From Dyadobacter sp. 50-39 (GTDB lineage Bacteria > Bacteroidota > Bacteroidia > Cytophagales > Spirosomataceae): DNA of 64,000 nucleotides. Below are positions 1 through 4,737 of this stretch, piece by piece. The notes beneath the pieces are model-generated. The model saw only the letters and a program-made list of their open reading frames with translations, was not told the origin of the DNA and did not search any database. The stretch is from assembly GCA_001898145.1 (NCBI GenBank), contig MKSR01000012.1, positions 1-64,000 on the forward strand, in the 5' to 3' direction. The stretch's first letter is position 1. The number at the start of each line of letters is the position of its first letter. The position numbers and the translations under genes are program-made.

Positions 1-975
1 TTCTGTCTGGTCTACCAAAAGCAAAGTCGCTGCTTTATTTTTGAGACAGATCTCGATTAACCTTTTGCTATATACGTGCTGCTTGTGGGCAACATATCGC
101 TTCTCTGATTGCATTAAATTCTCAATGGTTGATTGGCGTAGCTGTTCTCGGCTGTGTTGGTTCATGAAAGCCATGGCCTTCCTTTTTCGCCTGATTGCCG
201 CCTGGATCGCAAGTCGCTTGTAGAGATACTCGTCCTTGCTTCCGATTGTGTAGCGCCTATTGCCGATCAAGACCATGATCGGGTAGTCCAGCGACAAGCT
301 TGCCTCGGCGATAATATCTTCGTCGAGCTCGTGCTCAATGGGTTCCGTTTGAAAAACGGCAAGCATAAAAATCTTTCCTTTGTCCAGCGCCAGTGAGCTG
401 GTGCATAGTTTGACCTGGCTGGCCTCTAATCGTTGGAGCAGCTCCCGCTTATCATCACCTGCTCTACCCAGATACGTTTTGAAGGGCATATCAAACAGGT
501 TGAAATGGAACACCGCTCCTTCCCTACTGCTTCTGAACTTTTTAACATCGGTCCCTTTAAATGGGATCGGTATTTCCTTCCGGAAGCTAGGCAAGCTGCT
601 TTCGCCACTAGCCAGCGCCTTGCTCATTTTATTAAAGCTGGCCACCAGATTGCCATTCAAGGCGCTCATGATGTGCATCGGGATACTGCCCTTATAGTTT
701 TGGGCGAGCACCTGGTAGCTGGTATTCATCCTTGATGTCGAAAGCATACCATACTCGTCTTTTTTGATGTCAGAAAGCCTGGCCCTTACACCTTCTGTCA
801 AGTAGAGCATTTCCCTAAGCTGCTGCTGGACGTAATGATGCGTATAGATCTGGTTAGCGGCTTTGAAGCAGATGTAGCGCCATTGGTAGAGCGTATCGAT
901 AATCTTGTTTTTCTGATCGATGTCATCCGAATCGATCAGAAGCCGGATCTTCCGGGTAGTGAACAGCATTTCCAT
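1..975 (-). CDS. TnpB/Cas12f-like protein, predicted nuclease-dead (dCas12f-like); partial, cut by the window edge
   Basis: An uninterrupted frame of 325 codons runs from ATG at 975 off the left edge. The second half reads like the RuvC part of TnpB/Cas12f proteins: a beta-strand block (residues 219-241), a basic helix with repeated Arg/Lys (253-268), a second helix (283-310), then a hydrophobic strand (316-321). Where TnpB/Cas12f has GIDxG with the first catalytic Asp, this protein has EASLS (224-228), so the Asp is Ser226. Where the second motif has the catalytic Glu before Asp-Leu, it has LLLVDQ, so the Glu is Val321. Both visible active-site residues are therefore lost, which suggests binding without cutting. 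RuvC-III and any zinc finger lie outside the window. The ATG is 3 nt after the stop of the upstream sigma factor gene, so the two are surely co-transcribed. Known TnpB/Cas12f proteins bind a guide RNA and target DNA; an activator role here is inference. A plain degenerate IS605 OrfB is the main alternative. Confidence 0.72.
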   Translation of the reverse strand, partial: MEMLFTTRKIRLLIDSDDIDQKNKIIDTLYQWRYICFKAANQIYTHHYVQQQLREMLYLTEGVRARLSDIKKDEYGMLSTSRMNTSYQVLAQNYKGSIPMHIMSALNGNLVASFNKMSKALASGESSLPSFRKEIPIPFKGTDVKKFRSSREGAVFHFNLFDMPFKTYLGRAGDDKRELLQRLEASQVKLCTSSLALDKGKIFMLAVFQTEPIEHELDEDIIAEASLSLDYPIMVLIGNRRYTIGSKDEYLYKRLAIQAAIRRKRKAMAFMNQHSREQLRQSTIENLMQSEKRYVAHKQHVYSKRLIEICLKNKAATLLLVDQTE

Positions 976-978
976 GAT

Positions 979-1779
979 CTATCTGCCATTTTGTTTCCAG
1001 TGGTTTTTGATGAGCTGGTATGCTTTGATATAGTGCTGCTGAACCTGGGTCTGCGGATAGCCTAGCATGGAGGCGATGTCAGCAAAAGACTTCTTCTGTT
1101 CTTGCCTGAGCTCGAATACCTGAGCCTGCTCGCTACTCAGAATATGATCGTAAGGGTACGGCTGCTTTGCTTTTCTTATAGGCAAAGTCGCACGGGGTGC
1201 TACCATTTTTCTAAGCTCTTCCACGGCTTTTTGAATTTCGCTGCTCACATGCAGTGTAGTGGCTCCTATTCTTCTGGCTACCTCTTTCGGACTGTGTCCA
1301 TCCTTGAAATGAAGGCTCGCTATCAACTGACGCTGTTTGGGCAGAAATGAGATCGCTTTCGAGATATCCTCCCATCTTTTCCCCTCCGTGCCGTCCGCGA
1401 AGTAGCTATCCAGATCTGGCTTTTCGCCTAGAAGAGATTCCAAATGATCTAACTCAGTCATTTTTCGGTATATCTGGTATGCGGGCTTTTGAACCTGCTT
1501 CAAGAGTTGCCAACGTAGATTGAGACGAATAAACCGGTACGCATGAGGGAGGCTTTCAATCTGATCTCGGTGAGCCCAAACTTTAAGGTAACATTCGTGC
1601 AGGATGCAGCTTACCAGGAATTCGTCATTGACCAGCCGCCTACCAAGGTAAAGTAAGCTGTCATAAGTCCGCTTGTAAAAATAATTAAGCGCACGCTCTT
1701 CACCGCTGCGAAAAAGCGGCAGATATTGCTCATTACGAGCGGAAGTTCTAGAAAGTTCAAGAAGTGCCATGATAGACAT
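979..1779 (-). CDS. ECF-like sigma factor with an extra C-terminal HTH, partner of the dCas12f-like gene
   Basis: This is a 266-residue sigma-70 family protein read from ATG 1779; a TTG at 1791 would add four residues and ATG 1770 would remove three. Region 2-like sequence covers about residues 20-95 (LNYFYKRTYDSLLYLGRRLV, then HECYLKVWAH). A region 4-like helix-turn-helix covers about 140-195 (LPKQRQLIASLHFKDGHSPKEVA). Unlike a normal ECF factor of 170-200 residues, it continues with a second region-4-like segment at about 205-266 (LSSEQAQVFELRQEQKKSFADIA, then YIKAYQLIKNHW). No anti-sigma gene is adjacent. The next gene, 3 nt downstream, is the TnpB/Cas12f-like protein, which suggests that this factor is brought to promoters by a guide-RNA complex and not by its own promoter recognition. 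The sigma identity is fairly clear; the partnership is inferred from gene order. Confidence 0.8.
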   Translation of the reverse strand: MSIMALLELSRTSARNEQYLPLFRSGEERALNYFYKRTYDSLLYLGRRLVNDEFLVSCILHECYLKVWAHRDQIESLPHAYRFIRLNLRWQLLKQVQKPAYQIYRKMTELDHLESLLGEKPDLDSYFADGTEGKRWEDISKAISFLPKQRQLIASLHFKDGHSPKEVARRIGATTLHVSSEIQKAVEELRKMVAPRATLPIRKAKQPYPYDHILSSEQAQVFELRQEQKKSFADIASMLGYPQTQVQQHYIKAYQLIKNHWKQNGR

Positions 1780-1797: not shown

Positions 1798-1805
1798 CAA
1801 ATATA
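1798..1805 (-). promoter_or_regulatory. Possible Bacteroidota -7 box for the sigma/dCas12f operon
   Basis: Read on the minus strand this is TATATTTG, a match to the Bacteroidota housekeeping -7 motif TAnnTTTG. It would start transcription around 1791, about a dozen bases before the ATG at 1779, which favours that ATG over the TTG at 1791. I see no clear -33 TTTG at the usual spacing. Confidence 0.35.
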
Positions 1806-1884
1806 TACAAATCAATCTAAATGTGAGTTATAACCCACTTTATTTTTTCGCTTTTGCCCCCACCTTTCGCAAAATGCATGACAG

Positions 1885-2121
1885 GTGAAAGATCGCTATT
1901 CAAAGGAAATCATCCGATTTGGGGAACGCATTAGAGAAATTCGGCTTTATCGCAACATGATACAGCTCGATTTAGGCGAAGCTATCGGTATGGAAAGAAG
2001 CGAAATTAGTAAAATTGAAAATGGGAAGAAGAATGTCGAATTCAACACAATGGTCCGTTTGGCAGAAGCGCTCGCAGTAGAGCTGAGTGACTTTTTTACC
2101 CCTGTTTTTAAGCCTCGTTAA
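1885..2121 (+). CDS. XRE-family helix-turn-helix regulator
   Basis: A 78-residue protein that is essentially one HTH_3 (Cro/C1-type) domain. After an N-terminal helix (FGERIREIRLYRNM) come the turn and recognition helix (LDLGEAIGMERSEISKIENG) and a closing helix (MVRLAEALAVELSDFF). Small regulators of this type bind DNA as dimers, often as autorepressors in phages and islands. The frame opens at GTG 1885; the two upstream ATGs (1874, 1878) are out of frame. It is divergent from the sigma/dCas12f operon with about 105 bp between the starts, so it may control that operon from the shared intergenic region. That regulatory link is inference. Confidence 0.8.
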   Translation: MKDRYSKEIIRFGERIREIRLYRNMIQLDLGEAIGMERSEISKIENGKKNVEFNTMVRLAEALAVELSDFFTPVFKPR

Positions 2122-2710: not shown

Positions 2711-3934
2711 CTAATCACTGTCTTTGATATGGAGTAGTTCAGATAGTCTTCTCATGTCCTGACTTAATTTTGAATCGACGACCTTTGCATATATTTGAGT
2801 AGTTTTTAAGCTACGATGTCCCAGCATTCTGGAGACACTTTCTATCGGAACACCATTAGACAGTGTGACTGTGGTTGCAAAGGTATGCCGGGCTAAGTGA
2901 AAAGTGATCGGCTTTCTTATATTACAAACATCCCCGATTTCTTTGAGATATGCGTTCATCTTTTGATTAGATAAAACAGGAAGCAAAAAACCTTGCTCCA
3001 CTCCTGCATGATTTGCATATTTTCTCAACAGGTTCGATGCTTGTGGCAGCAATGGAATTCTAGCAACTGAGTCGGTTTTTTGCCGTTTAATGTTAATCCA
3101 TTTTTCTCCGACCGCCCCTTCACCAATGTTCGACGCTTTTAACTTCGCAACATCCGCATACGCAAGCCCAGTGTAGCAGCAAAAAAGAAAGATATCTCTC
3201 ACCTGTTCAAGACGAGGAATATCAAAATTCTTACCTTCAATGGATTTCATTTCCTGCTCAGTTAACGCTGTCCGATCCACTTCGTGTTTTGCCATTTTGA
3301 ATGCAAAAAACGGGTCGCGAGGTATGAATTCACTTTTGACACAAATCAAAACGATTTTTTTTAAGTTGGCCAAGTATTTCATCGTAGCGTTATGTCCGAC
3401 TTTTTTGACGCTTTTGAGGTAAAATTCGAAGGCGGAAATAAATTGAAAATTTAGTTTCCTCACATCCATCTGTTTTGCATTGAATTTCCAAAAAATGAAT
3501 TCACGTGTGTGCCTTAAGGTTGTCTGATAGCGCATGTAGGTAGCATATGCGTACTCAATCCCAACAAGATCATTGACCTTTGAATTATGATCTTCAAACA
3601 CTTTCAATAAGTCAATTGATTTTTCGTCGACGCCTAACCACTTGTTTTTAAAAACTTCAATCGACATCACCAATCCTTCCTGAATAATTTGCCGTTGAAT
3701 CCCGTGCACCTTGCCGATAAGAGAATCCAAAAAACCATTGATTTCTCTGGCTTCGATTGATGATCCCTTGACTCTTCCGGAGCCAGCCGACCATTTTTCC
3801 TCCAGAACAGTTTTTCCTGTCGATGTCTCAAACCTTGATCCTCCAATAGTGACCCTGATATAAATTGGCAATTGGCGGTTTCGATTGATCTTTGACTTTC
3901 TAACTGAAAAAAGAACATTCATGCTTGCTTCCAT
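2711..3934 (-). CDS. Tyrosine recombinase / integrase (Bacteroidota phage_int_SAM_5 type)
   Basis: A 407-residue site-specific integrase. An N-terminal arm-binding domain (about residues 5-95, starting NVLFSVRKSKINRNRQLPIY) is followed by a SAM-like core-binding domain (about 105-215) and the catalytic domain (about 220-400). Visible catalytic positions are a Lys in IKRQKTD, H346 and R349 in HLARH, the His in MLGHRS, and the nucleophile Y382 in TQIYAKV. The usual first Arg is Ala258 in YTGLAYADV, a substitution familiar in Bacteroidota integrases and probably not inactivating. It lies about 440 bp from the 3' end of the tmRNA gene, a classic integration target, so it most likely mobilises the island that carries the sigma/dCas12f pair. 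ATG 3922 is an alternative start. Confidence 0.93.
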   Translation of the reverse strand: MEASMNVLFSVRKSKINRNRQLPIYIRVTIGGSRFETSTGKTVLEEKWSAGSGRVKGSSIEAREINGFLDSLIGKVHGIQRQIIQEGLVMSIEVFKNKWLGVDEKSIDLLKVFEDHNSKVNDLVGIEYAYATYMRYQTTLRHTREFIFWKFNAKQMDVRKLNFQFISAFEFYLKSVKKVGHNATMKYLANLKKIVLICVKSEFIPRDPFFAFKMAKHEVDRTALTEQEMKSIEGKNFDIPRLEQVRDIFLFCCYTGLAYADVAKLKASNIGEGAVGEKWINIKRQKTDSVARIPLLPQASNLLRKYANHAGVEQGFLLPVLSNQKMNAYLKEIGDVCNIRKPITFHLARHTFATTVTLSNGVPIESVSRMLGHRSLKTTQIYAKVVDSKLSQDMRRLSELLHIKDSD

Positions 3935-4345: not shown

Positions 4346-4368
4346 AAAAGATTTGATTATTACTCTTG

Positions 4369-4737
4369 TGGAGACGGAGGGAGTCGAACCCTCGTCCAGA
4401 ACAGGGAAAACCTGCGCCTTCTACATGCTTATCCGTGATTCGGTTTTCGAGCCTGACAAGGTTCCCGGCGGACCTGCGTCATAACCTTAGATGCAAGGGT
4501 CTCGTTGGTTTTACGCATCAATATACCAACCAGCGCTGCGGTTCGACACCTCTGGACCCACCCGGCAGCACGTTAGGTGGAGAGATGATGGCATTTGGTT
4601 AATCCTCCGGATTAAGCAGCCATGGCGTAAGTTGATTCGCCAGTTATTGTTTGAGAATATTATTTCCGGGAGGTACTCTCAACTCCCGACATGCTTACAC
4701 ACAAGCCCTCAGCCCGCTGTCAAAACCGGTCGCCCCC
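4369..4737 (-). ncRNA. ssrA: Transfer-messenger RNA (tmRNA, one-piece)
   Basis: The minus strand gives an RNA of about 369 nt. Its 5' end GGGGGCG (4737-4731) pairs with CGTCTCC at the 3' end to form a 7-bp acceptor stem with two G-U pairs. The 5' domain has the tmRNA signature GACCGGTTTTGACAGCGGG, and the 3' end has the T arm GAGGGTTCGACTCCCTC. The internal tag frame reads G-E-S-T-Y-A-M-A-A-stop (codons GGC to TAA), which fits Bacteroidota proteolysis tags such as GETNYALAA. CCA is not encoded. tmRNA rescues ribosomes stalled on broken messages and tags the product for degradation. Its 3' end is the apparent attachment site of the island to the left. Confidence 0.95.

Follow-up and report, generated by a model that had tools for sequence, protein, structure and literature searches.

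The 64,000-nucleotide (nt) stretch of Dyadobacter sp. 50-39 analysed here, hereafter called the window, begins with two minus-strand genes, one for a sigma factor and one for a Cas12f-like protein, which very probably form an RNA-guided transcription system carried on a mobilisable element: a dCas12f-sigma pair (dCas12f, nuclease-deactivated Cas12f). By homology, by a dead RuvC site and by the co-occurrence of sigma factor, dCas12f and guide-RNA scaffold, the Dyadobacter pair is clearly a new member of this kind, which is already known from solved structures. Initiation of transcription under the guidance of an RNA is rare among modes of gene control and has come to light only recently. The present set comprises 21 Dyadobacter copies, for which there is a clean scaffold model, together with three types of repressor, each with its matching palindrome, and a conserved guide; its relatives span the range from single guides to arrays resembling clustered regularly interspaced short palindromic repeats (CRISPR). 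It thereby makes two questions accessible to testing: what turns the system on, and whether sigma factors of this sort act for mobile elements rather than for genes of the host.

The sigma factor and its nuclease-dead partner

The open reading frame (ORF) of the sigma factor ends at 979 and that of the Cas12f-like protein begins at 975, with the sigma gene upstream, confirming the 3-nt gap described in an earlier note on this DNA. The source genome comprises 7.7 Mb in 48 contigs, one of which, C12 (554,952 bases), starts with the window. ORF listing and contig comparison placed base 1 of both window and contig inside the dCas12f gene, which is truncated at codon 325 because the window begins at the contig end. 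Two further copies are present in the genome, a complete one on contig C29 and one on contig C48 that is cut by its own contig end.

Residues 5-362 of the complete C29 protein matched residues 7-364 of the PDB chains named 'Nuclease-deactivated Cas12f' (9n9c, 9n9m, 9n9o, 9n9q) with a phmmer E value of 7.9e-109, while the next-best PDB matches were Cas12f effector or nuclease chains at about 1e-25. A Foldseek search with a predicted model ranked 9n9m and 9n9c at the top (titled dCas12f-gRNA-DNA and dCas12f-gRNA complexes, released December 2025; gRNA, guide RNA). The model itself, made from 7 sequences, was middling (predicted local distance difference test, pLDDT, 73; predicted template-modelling score, pTM, 0.52) and adds little to the sequence evidence. 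The translation of the window copy has Ser at residue 226 (IIAEASLSLDYP) and Val at residue 321 (AATLLLVDQTE). When the complete copy was aligned with the active Cas12f of 9nzo, these positions fell on the catalytic Asp and Glu, as the earlier note had read them. RuvC-III, which that note expected to the left of base 1, is absent from the complete copy: the C29 protein stops at residue 363 and has neither RuvC-III nor a zinc ribbon. An alignment of 103 sequences, in which some Dyadobacter loci from two collections are counted twice and at least six sequences are cut by contig ends, contained no Asp at 226 (one gap), no Glu at 321 (three gaps) and no extension past residue 363. Judging from this alignment, all three RuvC catalytic positions are lost in this dCas12f family, and an intact RuvC site elsewhere, which the earlier note would have counted against its proposal, was not encountered.

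The sigma factor matched chain C of 9n9q, named RpoE, with an E value of 1.4e-31, and this one entry contains homologues of both the dCas12f and the RpoE-type sigma factor. Among 48 genomes of the genus, the sigma factor (E ≤ 1e-25) was found in the same 12 as dCas12f and was adjacent to it in 21/21 copies; at this threshold no sigma factor without a dCas12f partner was found in them. The 21 dCas12f copies include 16 intact ones of 363 aa and one of 359 aa, the other four being merely cut by contig ends. By tblastn, the sigma gene was located upstream of dCas12f in 78 of the 80 loci of a wider collection of genome contigs, and in the remaining two (L111 and L137) a C-terminal frame that by eye reads as sigma-like lies several hundred nt upstream. 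At E ≤ 1e-5, dCas12f was present in 17 of 222 genomes of the family, the source genome included; three of these matches are only 25-29% identical and may represent another branch.

Guide RNA, its calibration in relatives and the search for its target

A conserved RNA was detected behind the stop codon of the complete C29 copy, and in the same position in relatives, where a guide RNA had been predicted; the 3' flank of the window copy lies off the contig. The RNA consists of three stems followed by ATACAAC and a stretch that differs between clades. The scaffold of active Cas12f likewise ends in ..CAAC before the guide. RNAalifold, run on 32 chosen sequences, predicted 14 pairs, 8 of them with compensatory changes, and scaffold model R1 matched behind the C29 copy with 86.6 bits (L004:7057-7130, minus strand). 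The scaffold covariance model identified 22 places in 11 of the 48 genus genomes, all 11 of which carry dCas12f, and 21 of these places are situated behind a dCas12f gene, single or in tandem. In G087, the twelfth dCas12f genome, which gave no scaffold match, both copies are cut by contig ends. The scaffold was not found in plasmid records, and Rfam gave nothing near the gathering score for the guide RNA or for the Flavobacteriaceae leader described below (one locus each). Guides vary from clade to clade and also among the copies of a tandem; in L130 (9087-9384) and L154 (9087-9427), a single dCas12f is followed by three guide RNAs in tandem whose guides differ.

The one scaffold place away from a dCas12f gene is on contig C41 of the source genome (L018:383-1809), where a solo guide RNA comes after an integrase gene that ends in the same four codons as dCas12f (VLVE). 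C41 looks as if a sigma-dCas12f segment had been excised and the guide kept, misassembly also being possible. A susC/susD-like pair (named by eye) is located about 4.6 kb from this guide RNA, and no guide match was found at it.

The start and direction of the guide and its 5'-G were calibrated in relatives, by means of repeats in Parapedobacter and target-like sites in Flavobacteriaceae. Parapedobacter locus L133 contains ten 38-nt repeats at a spacing of 64-66 nt, 61-100% alike and each followed by a differing spacer; six of the ten end exactly in GGTATATACAAC, one of these shifted by one base. In 8 of the 68 loci L089-L156, 67 of which are non-Dyadobacter, repeats of this sort form runs of 3 to 14. 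These CRISPR-like arrays, with a period of about 66 nt and repeats ending near GGTATATACAAC, adjoin dCas12f-sigma pairs in Parapedobacter and Sphingobacterium, where a sigma factor may be supplied with guides by a CRISPR array. For one spacer of L121 there is a 14/14 seed match elsewhere in its own locus; apart from it, no convincing targets of array spacers were found within the loci.

In the 21 loci of Flavobacteriaceae type, of which L118 is too short to judge, the stretch after ATACAAC or ATACAAT is GCGTGGGCTCTCTTATTT or near it. A matching site occurs upstream of the own sigma gene in nine of them (L102, L104, L106, L108, L110, L113, L129, L144 and L154), each time preceded by G, and in L108 the change CTCACTT is common to guide and site. 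A site that matches the guide upstream of a gene and carries a 5'-G is reportedly a feature of the dCas12f-sigmaE preprint. When the Flavobacteriaceae 18-mer was searched with up to three mismatches in 11 genomes, leaving out the twelfth, that of L108, 54 places were obtained, guide RNAs accounting for at least 13 of these; the reversed control gave 13. Of ten further places, the six viewed proved to be two guide RNAs and four sites (L168, L179, L177 and L183) in one similar leader. This leader, which starts about TTTGCGATTCTTC, holds the guide match in a hairpin and precedes sigma-dCas12f operons as well as a susC-like gene; it folds well in the single case folded (L108). In L168 (1300-1700) it precedes the susC-like gene and has an XRE-like gene next to it, the two genes being identified by eye. 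L063 (G141) belongs to a different genus of the family; there the guide RNA is followed directly, at +258 from the dCas12f stop, by a susC-like ORF, before which no guide match was found.

The first 15 nt of the Dyadobacter guide, TGGGTTAGCTTAATT, are invariant in ten close Dyadobacter guide RNAs, including those of C29 and C41. They are followed by variable bases and then by a conserved AAGCAAAnGTGnCCC that pairs back onto the guide, making it self-complementary. A later guide start, behind a CRISPR-repeat-like stretch (..GCAGGTAAC), was set aside since it is situated in a terminator hairpin, and a tRNA-like (transfer RNA-like) reading of the guide was dropped.

The match just upstream of a gene that the earlier note had foreseen was not found for this first guide in its own genome. 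G plus the first 10 nt occurred exactly at one place there, in an ORF, and at three places in two of six relatives, all in ORFs; G plus 12 nt with at most one mismatch gave 2 places in the own genome, both guides (control, 9). The 15-mer with up to two mismatches gave 11 places in the own genome, two of them guides, against 11 for the reversed control, and 7 of the nine non-guide places overlap ORFs of at least 80 codons. Sites in L070 and L073 lie between ORFs and were rejected as targets on account of two mismatches and the lack of a preceding G. In the fetched loci (about 9 kb on each side), only the guides gave a 12/12 match in Dyadobacter, and a 12/12 match in G146 is inside an ORF. Of the weaker matches present (10-11 of 12), three fall in the same gap between a 157-aa ORF and a relaxase gene (both copies of G059, and G091), on the strand opposite to these two genes. 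Viral contigs contained 28 exact 15-mer stretches, which were taken as chance without a computed expectation; three of them are one sequence with a preceding G and an ORF 37 nt on. The Dyadobacter pattern of scaffold end plus guide was not found in the viral contigs. Since the assembled chromosome offers no good match, the target of this guide is, as far as these searches can tell, on a non-resident element, in an assembly gap or reached through a poor match.

Repressor cassettes and mobile-element context

An XRE/HipB-like repressor gene is divergent from the sigma operon of the window (Table 1). In the 21 Dyadobacter loci, the XRE proteins were grouped by protein identity, and palindromes were scored after having been picked by eye from the same loci. 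Type A (7 loci) goes with the palindrome ACACACATGTGTGT with at most one mismatch, type B (5 loci) with TTAGTTATAACTAA with at most two and type C (5 loci) with GTGGGTTATAACTCAC without any. The XRE group agreed with the best palindrome type in all 17 typed loci. The four untyped loci are both copies of G087 (nearest ORF not XRE; palindromes B and A), G088_C10 and G096_C1a, the last being a type of its own with a motif taken from that locus itself. The source genome carries one of each type (C29 A, C48 B, C12 C); among these three copies dCas12f is 86-95% identical and the XRE protein only 28-38%. The comparison indicates that repressor and palindrome are exchanged jointly, as cassettes, between copies. 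In five of the seven genomes with multiple copies the types differ (in G087 by palindrome alone, and in G088 with one copy untyped); G059 and G067 hold the same type twice, so the types are not strictly mutually exclusive. XRE homologues in the same place were also observed at some Flavobacteriaceae loci (e.g. L104, L144 and L152). The anatomy of the genes suggests that the XRE protein switches the operon. A likeness of the guide to the type C palindrome over 7 nt (TGGGTTA) was taken as chance because the same guide occurs at loci with other palindromes.

A tyrosine recombinase gene adjoins the transfer-messenger RNA (tmRNA) gene in the window, tmRNA genes being usual sites of integration. Behind the C29 copy, the 157-aa ORF, which has no family match, a relaxase gene and a gene for a NikA-like mobilisation protein were found. 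A relaxase homologue was present in the fetched flank of 11 of 13 Dyadobacter loci versus 8 of 67 others in the wider collection of genome contigs. These neighbours suggest that dCas12f-sigma is used by a mobile element. At E ≤ 1e-10, neither the plasmid nor the phage records gave a dCas12f match. One contig (31 kb) of a viral collection carries a dCas12f-sigma pair and two scaffold matches (L321:1-7786), next to genes that by eye resemble phage tail genes.

Table 1 Positions of the features in the window and of CRISPR-like arrays in relatives
Feature	Position	Strand	Basis or remark
dCas12f gene, truncated at codon 325 where the contig ends	1..975	-	complete homologue on contig C29, L004:7135-8226 minus, 363 aa
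Sigma factor, RpoE/ECF (extracytoplasmic function) type, with a second sigma-4-like helix-turn-helix at the C-terminus; start ATG 1779 or 1770	979..1779	-	homology
TATATATTTG, possible promoter element	1798..1807	-	resembles the Bacteroidota -7 motif
Near-palindrome GTGGGTTATAACTCAC, 14/16 symmetrical, proposed XRE operator (type C)	1823..1838	.	identical in 5/5 loci of this XRE type, window included
Repressor gene (XRE/HipB-like), diverging from the sigma operon	1885..2121	+	profile match, typing
Tyrosine recombinase (integrase)	2711..3934	-	profile match
tmRNA (ssrA) gene	4368..4737	-	3' end is the probable attachment site of the element
CRISPR-like arrays	L133:9266-10140, L123:9492-10015, L132:5892-6287; also L121, L142, L145, L146, L147		up to 14 repeats per run

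Explanations and comparison with known systems

By analogy with the other members of the family, the pair would direct RNA polymerase by means of its guide. The XRE protein would hold the operon off; upon its release, sigma factor and dCas12f would be made. The latter would bind the guide RNA transcribed from its 3' flank and form an R-loop where the guide finds its match next to a 5'-G; RNA polymerase, brought in by the sigma factor, would start transcription at this site. Such an RNA-guided pair had been proposed before from this DNA, and the class holds up on PDB homology, co-occurrence and the dead RuvC site, whereas a guide choosing a site in this genome was not borne out, no non-self 11-nt seed having been found. 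Several observations weigh against the whole reading. The exact 11-nt seed, on either strand, occurs in the own assembly in two guide RNAs only (reversed control, 3), so that no target of the first guide was found. Neither the C12 nor the C48 copy has its guide RNA on its own contig, and in L144 guide and site differ within the seed region (CTCTCTT versus CTCACTT), the site having changed and the guide not. Profile searches against Cas12f/TnpB, which the earlier note had recommended, gave weak results by themselves: the homology to PDB sequences is clear, but the NCBIfam family guided_TnpB scored 46.6 bits (E 2.8e-12), under its cut-off of 100, and a Pfam scan of the Cas12f-like protein found no TnpB domain.

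It is possible, albeit doubtful, that the guide addresses a promoter on the host chromosome through a short or imperfect match that was overlooked here. Chromosomal sites do exist in the Flavobacteriaceae relatives, one of them (by eye) upstream of a susC-like gene, with matches that are sometimes imperfect. In addition, the second, tandem guide of a more distant Dyadobacter group (63% identity) yielded 87 places with at most two mismatches in four genomes versus 17 for the reversed control, at least four of the 87 being guides themselves; this second guide may have a target among them. The first guide, on the other hand, has no non-self exact 11-nt seed on either strand and no non-self place at one mismatch or less of G plus 12 nt in its own genome, and in five close relatives each of the 11 non-self 11-mers found overlaps an ORF of at least 100 codons. 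More speculatively, and with slightly less conviction, the mobilisable element could use the RNA-guided sigma factor as its own switch: the cassettes would be exchanged like phage immunity regions, the three copies would answer to three repressors, and the self-folded guide that they share would be aimed at a non-resident sequence, such as the genes of an incoming helper element, which would be turned on. The operon might also be a passenger, left with a guide that no longer has a target, the 15 nt being conserved by the hairpin instead. The empty target search, the conservation of both hairpin arms around a variable loop and the C41 guide RNA without a neighbouring dCas12f would agree with this; given that the Dyadobacter dCas12f copies are intact except where contig ends cut them, one of 359 aa aside, and that guides differ between clades and tandem copies, such decay seems unlikely. 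Least probable by far is a dCas12f that acts as an RNA-guided repressor in the manner of TldR, with the sigma factor a mere neighbour, since the linkage to sigma is complete in the genus and nearly so in the wider collection (78/80 by tblastn, the other two with a sigma-like frame by eye), and since 9n9q holds a homologous dCas12f together with RpoE. Nuclease-dead TnpB homologues (TldR) do act as repressors, as one report describes (PMC13418256).

The known systems closest to the pair are the dCas12f-sigmaE complexes (9n9c, 9n9m, 9n9o, 9n9q), to which both proteins correspond over their full length, in the dead catalytic positions, in the protein end and in the guide RNA directly downstream. 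Preprints of 2025 are said to describe RNA-guided transcription by dCas12f-sigmaE, with examples aimed at susCD genes. The Dyadobacter pairs differ from these in their location on mobilisable elements, in the exchanging XRE-palindrome cassettes and in a self-complementary guide without a good chromosomal match; these differences are of degree, because XRE and mobile genes also occur near some relatives. TldR resembles the Dyadobacter protein as a dead, RNA-guided protein of the TnpB family on mobile DNA and is not known to have a sigma partner; it represses, whereas the Dyadobacter protein is nearest to Cas12f and is accompanied by a sigma factor at all 21 genus copies. With the active Cas12f/TnpB proteins (9nzo, 9nzr, AsCas12f), homology extends over the C-terminal two thirds, and the Asp-Glu-Asp triad of these enzymes has no counterpart in the Dyadobacter dCas12f, which lacks the RuvC-III/zinc part as well as the catalytic Asp and Glu.
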